From: Chloroflexota bacterium
GTDB taxonomy: Bacteria; Chloroflexota; Anaerolineae; JAAEKA01
Length of the DNA: 61,103 nucleotides
Direction: 5' to 3'
NCBI GenBank assembly: GCA_029558955.1
Contig: JAKQCW010000184.1
Location: 1 to 61,103 of the forward strand
Each line of letters starts with the position of its first letter. Position 1 is the stretch's first letter. A program made the position numbers and the translations under genes. The notes beneath the pieces were generated by a model. The model saw nothing but the letters and a program-made list of their open reading frames with translations. It searched no databases and was not told the DNA's origin. Below, one piece after another: positions 419 to 57,231 of this stretch.

Positions 419-1906
419 TCAACCTGGCAACTGGCGGCTGGCCCGATGCCATCCCCGCAGGAACTGCGGCGGCGTCACCGACTGGCGGCCCTGCATGCGC
501 ACGGCATAGGCCACCGCCGCGGCCACGGCCAGATCGCGCGCCACCGCGTCGGACAGATTGGCCACGCTGGACAGAATGCTCCGCCGCAGAAACTCCGTGG
601 TGTAGGCGCCGCTCAGGAAATCCGGGTCCTGCATGATGAGCTGGAAGAGCGGCAGATTGGTGTGCACACCGGTGATGACGAAATCCTGCAACGAGCGCTC
701 CATGCGCTTCAGCGCGGCCGCCCGATCCTCGCCCCAGACCACCACCTTGGCCAGAATCGGATCGTAGCGCACCGGCACCGGACAGCCGCTGTGGCCATAG
801 GTGTCGACGCGCACGCGCGGGCCGCCGGGCAGCCGGAAGTGCTGCAACACGCCGGGGCTGGGCAGATAGTGATTCCAGGGATCCTCGGCGTTGATGCGGC
901 ACTGAATCGCCGCGCCGCGCAGCCGCACATCCTCCTGACGCATGGACAGCCGCTTGCCCGCGGCGATTTCGATCTGCTCGCGCACCAGGTCGCGGCGGGT
1001 GACCATCTCTGTCACCGGATGCTCCACGGTGATGCGGCCCTTGATCTCGGTGAAGTAGAAGGTGCCATCCTGGTCCAGCAGGAACTCGATGGTCACCGCG
1101 TTGTTGCAGTTTAGCAACCGGGCGATCTGCACCGCCGTGTCGTGCAGCCGAGCGCGCAGCGCCTGGGTCAGGCCGGGCGCCGGCGATTCGCAGACCAGCT
1201 TTTGATTGTTGCGCTGGATGGAGCCATCCCGCTCCCCCAGGTGGATGATGTTGCCGTAGTGGTCGCCCAGGATCTGCACGTCGATGTAGCTGGCCGGCAG
1301 AATGGCGCGCTCCAGGTAGAGGCTGTCATCGCCGAAGATGAGGCGCGCCTCGCTGCCACACTGCTGCACGGTCTTGTCCAGCGCCTCCGGCTGGCGCACC
1401 AGGCGCGCGGCGCGGCCGCGGCCGCCGCTGCACGCCTTGACCACCACCGGAAAGCCCAGCGCGGCCGCCTCGGCCTGGTACAGCTCCTGCTCATGGGCCC
1501 GGAAGGGGACCGAAGAATGCTCGGTGGTGGCAAAGCCCGCGGCCTTGACCCGCTCCAGCAGCTCGATCTTCATGCGCACGGCGCGCATCACGTCGCTGGA
1601 TGGGCCCACGAAGACGATGCCTGCCTCTTCGCACGCCGCCACAAACTCCCAATGCTCCGCCAAATAGCCGTAGCCGGGATGGATCGCCTCGGCGCCTGTC
1701 TGCTGGGCGATCTTGATGATCTGGGCGCCGTCCATGTAGCCCAGCTCGGAATGCAGCTCGACGCACTCGTCGGCCAGACGCACGTGGAGCGAATCGCGGT
1801 CAGCCGCCTCGTAGAGCACCACCGTCCAGATGCCCATGTCGCGGCATTCCCGCACGATCCGCACCGCAATCTCGCCGCGGTTGGCGATCAGGATTTTCTT
1901 GAACAT
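419..1906 (-). CDS. Biotin carboxylase subunit of acyl-CoA carboxylase, divergent active site
   Basis: It should carboxylate biotin on the carrier protein using ATP and bicarbonate. The 495 residues have the N-terminal domain (MFKKILIANRGEIAVRIVRE), an ATP-grasp domain and the C-terminal domain (RINAEDP). The length is close to that of E. coli AccC. AGGAG lies 8 nt before the ATG. Several usually invariant positions differ. The glycine loop reads KACSGGRGRAARLV (157-170). At the places of E. coli H236, N290 and Q294 there are Asn234, Lys289 and Thr293. Lys157, Gln231, Lys236, Glu287, Arg291 and Glu295 are kept. The gene starts 21 nt after the carboxyltransferase stop. Family membership is certain; whether activity or partner specificity has changed cannot be judged from sequence. 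Confidence 0.93.
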   Translation of the reverse strand: MFKKILIANRGEIAVRIVRECRDMGIWTVVLYEAADRDSLHVRLADECVELHSELGYMDGAQIIKIAQQTGAEAIHPGYGYLAEHWEFVAACEEAGIVFVGPSSDVMRAVRMKIELLERVKAAGFATTEHSSVPFRAHEQELYQAEAAALGFPVVVKACSGGRGRAARLVRQPEALDKTVQQCGSEARLIFGDDSLYLERAILPASYIDVQILGDHYGNIIHLGERDGSIQRNNQKLVCESPAPGLTQALRARLHDTAVQIARLLNCNNAVTIEFLLDQDGTFYFTEIKGRITVEHPVTEMVTRRDLVREQIEIAAGKRLSMRQEDVRLRGAAIQCRINAEDPWNHYLPSPGVLQHFRLPGGPRVRVDTYGHSGCPVPVRYDPILAKVVVWGEDRAAALKRMERSLQDFVITGVHTNLPLFQLIMQDPDFLSGAYTTEFLRRSILSSVANLSDAVARDLAVAAAVAYAVRMQGRQSVTPPQFLRGWHRASRQLPG

Positions 1907-1927: not shown

Positions 1928-3464
<1,537 letters not shown>

Positions 3465-3475
<11 letters not shown>

Positions 3476-4418
3476 AGTAGGGTCCTCCTGTAACATGTAG
3501 AGCAGCCAGTGTCAACACAAAGCGGCCGGCGCGCCGCCACCAGCCGCGAATCTGCCAATCAAGTGCGTCGGTCGGCGGCAGGCGGCCGGCCCGACTCAGC
3601 GCGTCCGACAACAGTTCGGGGTCGAGCAAGACGTGTACTTCGCTCCAGCCAGGCTCAACCTCGGCGTTCAGCTCCAGGCCGGTGGCCGGCAGGCAGATCA
3701 CCCGCCGCGTGTCCACGGTCAGGCCTACTTGCAGCGCCTTGAGCACGGCCTCCTTGGCGCTCCAGGTGACGGTGGTCATCAGCGCCTGCTCGTCGCCCAG
3801 CGCCTGGCCGACCCAACGGATCTCGTCGGCGGCGAAGTAGGCCGCGACGAAGCTATCCGAACGCGGCGCCACACGCTCGATGTCGCCGCCAACCTGCACC
3901 AGGCCATCCGGCGGAAAGCCGGGGCTGATGCCGTAGGTCTGCCGGTCTGGCGACTTCCAGCGGCCGCCCGCGGCGTAGAGGGCGCAGAGCGCCATCTCGC
4001 TGCTGTGGCTGATGGAGAGGCTGATGGGCAGGCGCATGCCGCTGACCCGCGGCACGGGGTAGCCCAGCCGGCGCCCCGGCACAGCCACCAGCGGCGCGCC
4101 GCTGACCCAGCGGGAGCCCAGCGGCAGGTCCATGGGGGTCGCCTGGCTGTCGAAGACCACCACCGGCGCGGCGCTCTCTTCCGAGTCGCGCGCGATCACC
4201 AGGGCATCCAGCGACGGCTGTTGGCCGGTCTCCATGGCCACGTAGCGCTGCGCCAACCGCTTGGCCGCGCAGCGGCCCAGCAGCCATTCGCCGCGGCGCT
4301 TGGCCGTGGCCAACTGCGCCAGGCGTTCCCGTTCCGCCGGGCTCAACAGCCATCCAGGCGCCTCGTCGTGGATGATCTGCGGGCATTCAGCCGCGGGTTG
4401 CAGCAGCCAGTGGATCAT
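3465..4418 (-). CDS. Sfp-type 4'-phosphopantetheinyl transferase
   Basis: It transfers phosphopantetheine from CoA to carrier proteins. In the 317 residues the family motifs are clear: SISHS (135-139), GGDIERV (177-183, with Asp179 and Glu181 as Mg ligands) and WSAKEAVLKAL (219-229). The spacing between the SHS and GDIE motifs is about 40 residues, longer than I would expect. It carries an extra segment, GRWKSPDRQTYGISPGF. The gene lies between the megasynthase and the carboxylase genes on the same strand, so its natural substrate is probably the three ACP domains of that synthase. Its 3' end overlaps the carboxyltransferase 5' end. The start has only a weak ribosome site. Confidence 0.92.
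3484..3489 (-). promoter_or_regulatory. Shine-Dalgarno AGGAGG that decides the carboxyltransferase start
   Basis: A perfect AGGAGG lies inside the last codons of the PPTase gene, 8 nt upstream of the TTG at 3475 and 20 nt upstream of the ATG at 3463. The ATG at 3496 lies upstream of it and has no ribosome site of its own. This favours the TTG start. Confidence 0.6.
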
Positions 4419-4627: not shown

Positions 4628-13372
<8,745 letters not shown>

Positions 13373-13386
13373 GGTTATTAGCCCTG

Positions 13387-15018
<1,632 letters not shown>

Positions 15019-15051
15019 GGTGTAGTGCCTCCGACAGGTTTTAGAGTCTAG

Positions 15052-15118
15052 CCGGCGGGTGCGAGCACATGGATTGCGTAGGCTGCCGTATCGAAATCCA
15101 CGTGCCCACACCCGCCGG
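15052..15118. repeat. Hairpin repeat family E, copy 1
   Basis: An inverted repeat with 24-nt arms (15052-15075 and 15095-15118, 21 of 24 paired) starts CCGGCGGGTG. Read on the minus strand its loop is TCGATACGGCAGCCTACG, close to the loop of copy 3 at 45769-45787. Confidence 0.75.
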
Positions 15119-15179
15119 CGGGCCAAACGTTGGTTTCGGTACGTCTCAGAAGGCTACTCAACCAACGGGTGCCCGCCGG
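15115..15179. repeat. Hairpin repeat family E, copy 2
   Basis: The arms CCGGCGGGCC...GTTGGTT (15115-15135) and AACCAACGGGTGCCCGCCGG (15160-15179) enclose a 24-nt loop that starts TCGGTACG and ends GGCTACTC. It overlaps copy 1 by four bases and lies in the opposite orientation. Confidence 0.7.
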
Positions 15180-25848: not shown

Positions 25849-25850
25849 CG

Positions 25851-26257
25851 AGTATTGCGTAATCGGAGAGCTCTTCGGTGATGCGGAATCGGTTCTGATT
25901 ATGCGTAACGAGTAACGAGTATTGCGTAATCGGAGAGATCTTTGGTGATGCGGAATCGGTTCTGGTTATGCGTAACGAGTAACGAGTATTGCGTAATCGG
26001 AGAGACCTTCGGTGATGCGGAATCGGTTCTGATTATGCGTAACGAGTAACGAGTATTGCGTAATCGGAGAGCTCTTCGGTGATGCGTAACGAGTAACGAG
26101 TATTGCGTAATCGGAGAGCTCTTCGGTGATGCGTAACGAGTAACGAGTATTGCGTAATCGGAGAGACCTTCGGTGATGCGGAATCGGTTCTGATCATGCG
26201 TAACGAGTAACGAGTATTGCGTAATCGGAGAGACCTTTGACATTGCGGAGATCGGTT
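25851..26257 (+). repeat. Minisatellite D: seven 67/47-bp units
   Basis: The start AGTATTGCGTAATCGGAGAG recurs at 25851, 25918, 25985, 26052, 26099, 26146 and 26213. The spacing is 67 bp four times, then 47, 47 and 67. The short units lack 20 bp around GGAATCGGTTCTGAT. A related tract occurs at about 47814-47850. Confidence 0.9.
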
Positions 26258-26261
26258 CCGG

Positions 26262-26331
26262 TTACTCGTTACGCATTACTCGTTACGCATTACTCGTTAC
26301 GCATTACTCGTTACGCATTACTCGTTACGCC
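26262..26331 (+). repeat. Array of five 14-bp TTACTCGTTACGCA units
   Basis: Five copies of TTACTCGTTACGCA, the last ending in C, follow the minisatellite. They are the reverse complement of the TGCGTAACGAGTAA part of its unit, so the arrays can pair into long hairpins. Confidence 0.9.
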
Positions 26332-47347: not shown

Positions 47348-47360
47348 GCACTCGCGGCTG

Positions 47361-47689
47361 GCTCGGTCGGAGACCGGCCAGAGCAGCGAAGTGGCTCGGT
47401 CAGAGACCGGCCAGAGCAGCGAAGTGGCTCGGTCAGAGACCGGCCAGAGAGCGAAGTGGCTCGGTCAGAGACCAGCCAGAGCAGCGAAGCGGCTCGGTCG
47501 GAGACCGGCCAGAGCAGCGAAGCGGCTCGGTCGGAGACCGGCCAGAGCGGCGAAGTGGCTCGGTCGGAGACCGGCCAGAGCGTCGAAGCGGCTCGGTCGG
47601 AGACCGGCCAGAGCAGCGAAGTGGCTCGGTCGGAGACCGGCCAGAGCGGCGAAGTGGCTCGGTCGGAGACCGGCCAGAGCGTCAGACAG
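47361..47689 (+). repeat. Minisatellite of repeat family A: ten 33-bp units
   Basis: GCTCGGTCGGAGACCGGCCA starts units at 47361, 47394, 47427, 47459, 47492, 47525, 47558, 47591, 47624 and 47657. All spacings are 33 bp except one of 32. Each unit contains the palindrome CGGTCGGAGACCG-type core. Single copies of the core occur at 5321, 44913, 44952, 53842, 53976, 54110 and 60699. Confidence 0.92.
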
Positions 47690-53827: not shown

Positions 53828-54225
53828 GTGCGGCTGAGCTGGCTCGGTCGGAGACCGGCCAGAGCGACCGGAGTCGAGGCTTTAGTCAGGAGTCGAGGCT
53901 TTAGCCGGATTCTGTGCGAGACCCGGCTGAAGCCTCGACTCCATACTGTTGAAAGGTTTGCGCCGGCGTGAGCTGGCTCGGTCGGGGACCGGCCAGAGCG
54001 ACCGGAGTCGAGGCTTTAGTCAGGAGTCGAGGCTTCAGCCGGATTCTGTGCGAGACCCGGCTGAAGCCTCGACTCCATACTGTTGAAAGGTTTGCGCCGG
54101 CGTGAGCTGGCTCGGTCGGAGACCGGCCAGAGCGATGGTTCGAGTGCGACCAGAGCGATGGTGAAGACCGGCCAGAGCGGAAGGCTGGCGGCCATGTGTG
54201 CGATGGATTTAGGAGCAATCACCTC
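53828..54225. other. 398-bp gap built of 134-bp repeats
   Basis: No gene is seen. The space holds two complete and one partial copy of a 134-bp unit, then degenerate pieces of family A up to the HAD gene. Confidence 0.75.
53837..54133 (+). repeat. Direct repeat, 134-bp unit, two copies and a partial third
   Basis: AGCTGGCTCGGTCGG starts at 53837, 53971 and 54105. Each unit combines one family A core, then family C elements (GGAGTCGAGGCTTTAG and the complementary GAAGCCTCGACTCC), then ATACTGTTGAAAGGTTTGCG. The family C parts can fold into a hairpin. Confidence 0.85.
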
Positions 54226-54978: not shown

Positions 54979-55495
54979 TACCGATCAACATCGAGGCTTC
55001 CACCGGGTCACCGGGCAGGAGTCGAGGCTTCAGCCGGTCGGAGTCAAGGCTTCAGCCGGTCGGGGTCGAGGCTTCAGCCGGATCATGCGACTCGAGCGCG
55101 CCGCCCCGCCTAAAGGCTCGACTCCGGGCTGTCAACCGCCATAGCTGAAACCACTGCACCCCGCCAATCTGCCTCCGATCCCCTCCGATCTGCGTCCATC
55201 CGCGTTCATCCGCGTCCCGCCCAAAAATTCCCAGCACGCGCGGAGTCGAGGCTTCAGCCGGGTCATGCGACTCGAGCGCGCCGACCCGCCTAAAGGCTCG
55301 ACTCCGGGCTGACAACCGTCATAGCCGAAACCACTGCACCCCGCCAATCTGCCTCCGATCCCCTCCGATCTGCGTCCATCCGCGTTCATCCGCGTCCCGC
55401 CCAAAGATTCCCATCACGCGCGGAGGCGAGGCTTCAGCCGGCTAAAGCCTCGCCTCCTACGCCCCAGCCAACTGCCGCCGGGCGGCGCTACAATC
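54979..55495. other. 517-bp gap of family C repeats
   Basis: No gene is seen. GAGTCGAGGCTTCAGCCGG-like elements recur from about 55019, followed by two 180-bp units. Confidence 0.75.
55066..55425 (+). repeat. 180-bp direct repeat, two copies (family C)
   Basis: TCATGCGACTCGAGCGCGCC recurs 180 bp apart (55083 and 55263). The units also share CTGCACCCCGCCAATCTGCC and CGTCCATCCGCGTTCATCCG. A diverged third copy lies at 57000-57180, and a shorter one at 27445-27517. Confidence 0.88.
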
Positions 55496-56992: not shown

Positions 56993-57231
56993 CAGTCGGA
57001 GTCGAGGCTTCAGCCGGTCGGAGTCGAGGCTTCAGCCGGTTCGGAGTCGAGGCTTTAGCCGGTCGGCCCATGTGATCAAGCGCGCCGACCCGCCTATAGG
57101 CTCGACTCCGGCATCCAAAACCGCTACCCCCCATCATCTCCAATCCGCCTCCGCTCCGCGTTCATCCGCGTCCAATCCAAAGGCCAACGAGGCGCGGTCC
57201 TGGCATCCTACCGACCCACCGCCGCGTCAGG
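56993..57231. other. 239-bp gap: diverged family C repeat
   Basis: From 57000 there are three GAGTCGAGGCTT(C/T)AGCCGGT elements, then a degenerate copy of the 180-bp unit ending near 57180. No gene is seen. Confidence 0.65.

Follow-up and report, generated by a model that had tools for sequence, protein, structure and literature searches.

The window analysed here, a stretch of 61,103 nucleotides that opens contig C242 in a Chloroflexota bacterium (host genome of 4.59 Mb in 350 contigs), carries a biotin carboxylase (BC) paralogue whose product departs from E. coli AccC at several active-site residues, and this raises the question of whether the protein is a working enzyme of a specialised kind, a BC that no longer carboxylates biotin, or the result of decay or of an assembly error. 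The gene (419-1906, minus strand) starts with ATG and has 495 codons with no internal stop, in agreement with the initial annotation, which had described the rest of the protein as intact. The Pfam domains Biotin_carb_N, CPSase_L_D2 and Biotin_carb_C follow each other in this order, and all three were matched by 35/35 members of a 35-member clade set.

Residues were numbered by aligning the window protein to E. coli AccC from NC_000913.3, to which it is about 42% identical over residues 1-444. Like AccC and the ordinary BCs (TIGR00514, NF006367), it has the three-domain ATP-grasp BC fold and most of the active-site residues. The alignment reproduced the five substitutions read earlier from the sequence, all encoded on the minus strand: Lys289 (codon 1040-1042) at Asn290, a metal-site residue; Arg163 (1418-1420) at Gly165 in the glycine-rich loop; Ala166 (1409-1411) at Gly168; Thr293 (1028-1030) at Gln294; and Asn234 (1205-1207) at His236. 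To these it added two further changes in the glycine loop (G162S and M169A) as well as H209Y, E211D and E241C, while K116, K159, E201, Q233, K238, E276, E288, R292, E296 and R338 were kept. Two standard AccC-type features are thus missing from the window BC, namely the metal-site Asn (N290) and G165 of the GGGGGRGM-like loop, and the protein scored below the cut-offs of both the AccC equivalog TIGR00514 (499.8, cut-off 626.5) and the subfamily model NF006367 (511.7, cut-off 597).

In order to see which of these changes recur, residues were counted in 44 full-length clade members, all distinct, and in 66 BCs from outside the clade, leaving out 25 rows that were duplicate, short or X-bearing; L039/L007 (K116S with a changed loop) was dropped for N bases in its sequence and the fragment L043/L010 (E at the K238 position) for being too short. 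Position 290 was Lys in 44/44 clade members and Asn in 66/66 other BCs, the two sets having been split by residue 290 itself and the tree separating the same groups. Position 165 was Arg in 43/44 and His in 1/44 clade members versus Gly in 66/66 other BCs. The sites listed in the initial annotation were all confirmed, with unequal weight: N290K and G165R are the clade signature. Q294T, stressed there for its bicarbonate contact, occurred in 3/44 members (the window, L033 and L030) and in the short fragment L043/L010. Only a single row outside the window's genus has it, and it was rejected as a key change because it is nearly genus-limited. H236N, found in 28/44 members, turned out not to be unusual, since His is present in just 55/66 ordinary BCs (6/44 in the clade). 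Gly168 is conserved in the majority of clade members.

An assembly error could be imagined in a window taken from an assembly of so many contigs. However, the same changes were found in Anaerolinea sp. CH3 (93%), in several Roseiflexus MAGs, in a Chloroflexaceae bacterium and in others, and K290 is also present in the single-contig genome G444, whose residue 165 is the one His. Recurrence in other genomes refutes assembly error for N290K and G165R; standard residues throughout the neighbouring homologues, which had been named as the sign of such an error, were not found. Decay was rejected because dN/dS in six close pairs (0.05-0.15) was well below 1, as expected from the earlier view that this was not a decaying gene. 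The chance that the locus reflects an assembly error, or gene decay in a single MAG, is, in our judgement, negligible.

A tree of 74 rows, built by a quick method, separated the 39 clade rows from the rest by a branch of length 0.67 and support 100. N290K and G165R mark a monophyletic paralogue clade of BC, which corroborates the suggestion of a specialised clade, and its members hold the same position between the genes for a carboxyltransferase (CT) and a biotin carboxyl carrier protein (BCCP), in a CT-BC-BCCP cassette, in 41 sources except where a locus or contig ends. In the class of the window, 222/298 genomes had a BC match with an E value of 1e-100 or lower and 31/298 had a probable clade orthologue (47-100% identity), the remaining matches scoring lower; residues were checked in all 31 orthologue genomes (G108 being a fragment that lacks the loop and G030 holding N bases) and, among the lower-scoring matches, solely in those fetched later. 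A DNA pattern encoding E-x-K-x-R-[ILV]-Q-[VIM]-E-H-P matched 11/400 genomes of the phylum, a lower bound because the pattern is stringent and misses the window itself; all 11 belong to two families outside the class and all are clade members. Outside Chloroflexota, clade members were found in 2/247 genomes (G839 and G808) of the phylum to which the Bryobacteraceae MAG L056 (Acidobacteriota) belongs. At E 1e-185 none was found among 247 genomes of the phylum of L049 or 145 genomes of the phylum of L047, both searched without a positive control there. Two genomes of the Bryobacteraceae MAG phylum carry the cassette (BC at L159 5378-6859 and L160 3412-4878), and their BCs have further changed sites (K238Q, E296D and R338H; K116R and E296P) with K290 and R165 kept.

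The BC gene belongs to a run of minus-strand genes encoding, in this order, an acyl-CoA dehydrogenase-like protein (13387-15126), a PfaA-like synthase of 2914 aa (4628-13372), a 4'-phosphopantetheinyl transferase (PPTase; ACPS domain, 3465-4418), the CT subunit that is the partner of BC (Carboxyl_trans domain, 1928-3496), BC itself and a BCCP (1-404) that is cut by the contig edge and contains the AMKM biotinylation motif. The acyl-CoA dehydrogenase-like gene is the upstream neighbour on the same strand and only a putative member of the cassette. The domain order of the synthase is KS-AT-second KS (CLF-like)-three ACP-KR-DH, the second KS being called CLF from its position only. Pfam matched two ketoacyl-synt domains, Acyl_transf_1, PP-binding and KR, and the three ACP motifs were read in the sequence; the score against TIGR02813 was 949.7 bits, under the cut-off of 1010.1.

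This arrangement resembles the Type R secondary lipid synthase, a pfaA homologue with KS-MAT-CLF-ACP(3-6)-KR followed by a PPTase, which is reported from Roseiflexus, Koribacter and Solibacter (Acidobacteria) and Elusimicrobium, with products listed as uncharacterised in 2011 (Shulse and Allen 2011, PMC3098273). The window has the same pfaA homologue with KS-MAT-CLF-ACP-KR and the same adjacent PPTase, but its synthase ends in an extra DH domain. The passages of PMC3098273 available to us note part of an acetyl-CoA carboxylase in one Type R cluster, and those passages describe neither a linked CT-BC-BCCP cassette in Roseiflexus nor any active-site change.

The cassette was surveyed in 41 sources, that is, the window and 40 loci, some of them from one genome. 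CT was upstream of BC in 38/41 and BCCP downstream in 40/41, the missing cases being locus edges, and the AMKM biotin motif of BCCP was intact in 13/13. The PPTase and/or the synthase were seen in 26/41 sources, nine being too short to show them; six (L085, L086, L090, L091, L093 and L096) had at least 2 kb upstream of CT with neither gene. The CT-BC-BCCP cassettes of L085, L086, L093 and L096 are preceded by several kb that lack synthase and PPTase. Among four additional loci, L159, L161 and L162 had the full set and L160 had CT-BC-BCCP.

Several repeats were observed in the window. In the ACP region of the synthase (7220-8400), the first and second of the three ACPs are nearly identical and the linkers consist of short repeated motifs (GGTGAACCGTCAACGGTGAGC..., ACCGATCACCGTTCACCGG...). 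A 24-base dispersed repeat is present in 16 copies at two or fewer mismatches, a tandem block at 47360-47680 included, and was found in none of the other loci examined. One copy (5321-5346) lies in frame in the DH domain, where it adds about 13 residues (the ARSETGQS region); no such insert occurs in the corresponding DH segments of the other loci aligned with it, among which L034, L162 and L103 showed shifted or shorter gaps there and the match to L102 stopped before the insert. An intergenic tandem array at 25850-26330 is made of 47- or 67-base units in which GCGTAACGAGTAACGAGTATTGCGTAATCGG is abundant, and a further dispersed repeat around CGGCTGAAGCCTCGACTCC occurs in about 10 copies (15545, 15601, 53923-54061, 55018-55246 and 57001-57024).

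Evolutionary rates were compared in 13 genomes, giving 78 pairs. Mean pairwise identity was 52.5% in the clade BC, and 80.9% and 47.0% in its CT and BCCP, respectively; the ordinary BCs of these 13 genomes gave 68.5%. In 78/78 pairs the clade BC had a lower identity than the ordinary BC, and in 78/78 a lower one than its own CT. In the six close pairs, dN/dS was 0.047-0.148 for the clade BC and 0.015-0.042 for CT, the former being about 3-5 times the latter; in the window's genus the ordinary BC gave 0.050 versus 0.148 for the clade BC. Selection on the clade BC is purifying, and weaker than on CT or on the ordinary BC.

The host also has an ordinary BC, with the standard residues, adjoining its own CT (1065-2483 and 3139-4665 of contig C335 in genome G000). 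It is 46% identical to the window BC, and the two form paralogous BC-CT pairs. Given this second pair, the clade BC is probably not needed for ordinary malonyl-CoA in the host. A host lacking any other BC was sought in 42 clade-bearing genomes (15 + 27) and none was found, the second BC of G289 being a partial match. In addition, the open-licence literature searched (biotin carboxylase with Roseiflexus and polyketide synthase; N290K; E296A) contained no description of the clade, and a search there for a biotin carboxylase pseudoenzyme returned, as its sole match, a paper on a tubulin ligase.

The AlphaFold2 model built on the 35-member alignment had a mean pLDDT of 88.7, with residues 473-495 under 50, and VIA-align superposed it on E. 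coli BC 3rv3 with a Z of 55.0 and an rmsd of 1.6 over 441 residues; many other BCs give a similar Z to the model. The predicted fold of the clade BC is the ordinary BC fold, and it is from the alignment that we infer the placement of Lys289 in the metal site.

Ten sites taken as essential to the chemistry, chosen from structural work on AccC, were followed across the clade. K159, E201, E276 and R292 were retained in 44/44 members, K238 and R338 in 43/44, K116 in 42/44 and Q294 in 41/44, while E288 was kept in 39/44 (plus five D) and E296 in 38/44 (plus three D, and A, V and P once each). Mean retention at the ten sites was 0.959, compared with 0.800 at 60 further positions that do not vary among ordinary BCs, a modest difference (permutation p 0.038), and 32/44 members showed no departure at any of the ten. 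None of the 66 other BCs departed at these sites or at 165, 209, 233 and 290. H209 (kept in 7/44) and H236 have drifted in the clade, at positions that we take to be ribose contacts, as has Q233 (kept in 28/44). The changes thus affect a single metal ligand, the loop that covers the phosphates and the nucleotide-contact positions, and the kept set comprises residues for phosphate, the remaining metal ligands, bicarbonate and biotin. Among the chemistry sites, Glu295, Glu275, Glu287, Glu200, Gln232 and Arg337 are named in PMC11077971, where Glu200 (E201 here) and Gln232 (Q233 here) are ADP contacts, and N290, R292 and R338 in PMC8667948. Four members with K290 and R165 have lost ordinary catalytic residues, namely L021 (E296A), L020 (E296V), L150 (E296P) and L149 (K238Q, E296D and R338H); under ordinary BC chemistry, judging from their residues, these should be dead.

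What does such a protein do? The reading that we tentatively prefer, with a probability of roughly 0.48 for the whole of it, is that the clade is an ancient BC paralogue reserved for the CT-BC-BCCP cassette supplying a Type R lipid synthase, and that its members are BCs with a rebuilt metal/nucleotide site which are probably still active. Lys290 would partly stand in for the charge of a Mg2+ ion, perhaps with Arg165 acting on the phosphates as well, and the mode of nucleoside binding would differ. The enzyme would still carboxylate the biotin of its own BCCP, probably at a low rate or with an altered nucleotide dependence, and CT would use the carboxybiotin to form the malonyl-type extender of the neighbouring synthase. 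Those few members without E296, K238 or R338 would have lost activity and would rely on the genome's ordinary BC. This reading draws on the fixation of N290K and G165R in the clade against 0/66 elsewhere, the retention of the chemistry sites above the background, the branch support, the CT-BC-BCCP linkage, the intact BCCP motif, the low dN/dS and the intact predicted fold.

Against it stand the cost of losing N290 in E. coli, where activity of N290A is reported as 250-fold lower (PMC8667948), so that the protein could be inactive with N290K fixed, and also the drift at 209, 233 and 236, the scattered losses of E296, K238 and R338 with K290 and R165 retained, the lower conservation in all 78 pairs and the presence of another BC in 42/42 host genomes. 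Apart from the drift, these observations, with the permanent loss of the metal-site Asn, the remodelled glycine loop and an evolution faster than that of CT and of the ordinary BC, favour a close rival, a pseudo-BC, somewhat better than a one-in-three prospect, in which the protein would no longer carboxylate biotin but would keep the fold and a ligand pocket (for biotin or carboxybiotin, bicarbonate or nucleotide) and serve CT and BCCP in a scaffolding or regulatory role. Salt bridges from K290 to E276 and E288 would then replace the metal, and carboxybiotin would come from the cell's ordinary BC. The retention of the chemistry sites above the invariant background argues against a pure scaffold, which should have lost more than is seen in a clade with 32/44 members intact at all ten sites.

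Changed chemistry is a further alternative. The cassette might work without ATP-driven carboxylation, for instance as a transcarboxylase or decarboxylase made up of CT and BCCP in which the BC-like subunit handles carboxybiotin, or the BC might use another phosphoryl donor. The kept phosphate, bicarbonate and biotin residues, the drift of the nucleotide contacts and the two added positive charges are compatible with this, and the best NCBIfam model for CT is mmdA (decarboxylase alpha), although below the cut-off, and CTs of ordinary carboxylases may match likewise. E201, an ADP contact according to PMC11077971, is nevertheless present in 44/44 members and argues that a nucleotide is still bound. 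We consider this alternative quite improbable. The related proposal that the Asn to Lys and Gly to Arg swap itself changed the phosphoryl donor or ended ATP-driven carboxylation, CT and BCCP then running as a transcarboxylase or decarboxylase coupled to the making of lipid, we regard as unlikely; if true, it would be a biotin-dependent system of an undescribed kind.

The active-enzyme reading or its rivals apart, the window BC stands apart in that it falls below the AccC cut-offs and has replaced two residues invariant in the ordinary BCs compared, and it keeps the fold and the operon partners. The closest comparison within the phylum is with BC1 and BC2 of Chloroflexus aurantiacus (PDB 8HZ4 and 8HZ5), which have the same BC fold, 8HZ4 being 42% identical to the window BC in the structural alignment, and for which PMC11077971 reports biotin carboxylase activity and calls the residues strictly conserved. 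The clade, in contrast to E. coli AccC and the ordinary BCs, has fixed Lys at 290, a metal-site position that is Asn in every ordinary BC counted and is costly to lose in E. coli, and nearly always Arg at 165, and it occurs across Chloroflexota and, in another phylum, in two genomes or more. It makes two questions testable, namely whether ATP-grasp carboxylation can proceed with a lysine in the metal position and whether there are pseudo-BC subunits among the biotin-dependent carboxylases, and it attaches a dedicated carboxylase cassette to a type of lipid synthase whose products were still uncharacterised in 2011.
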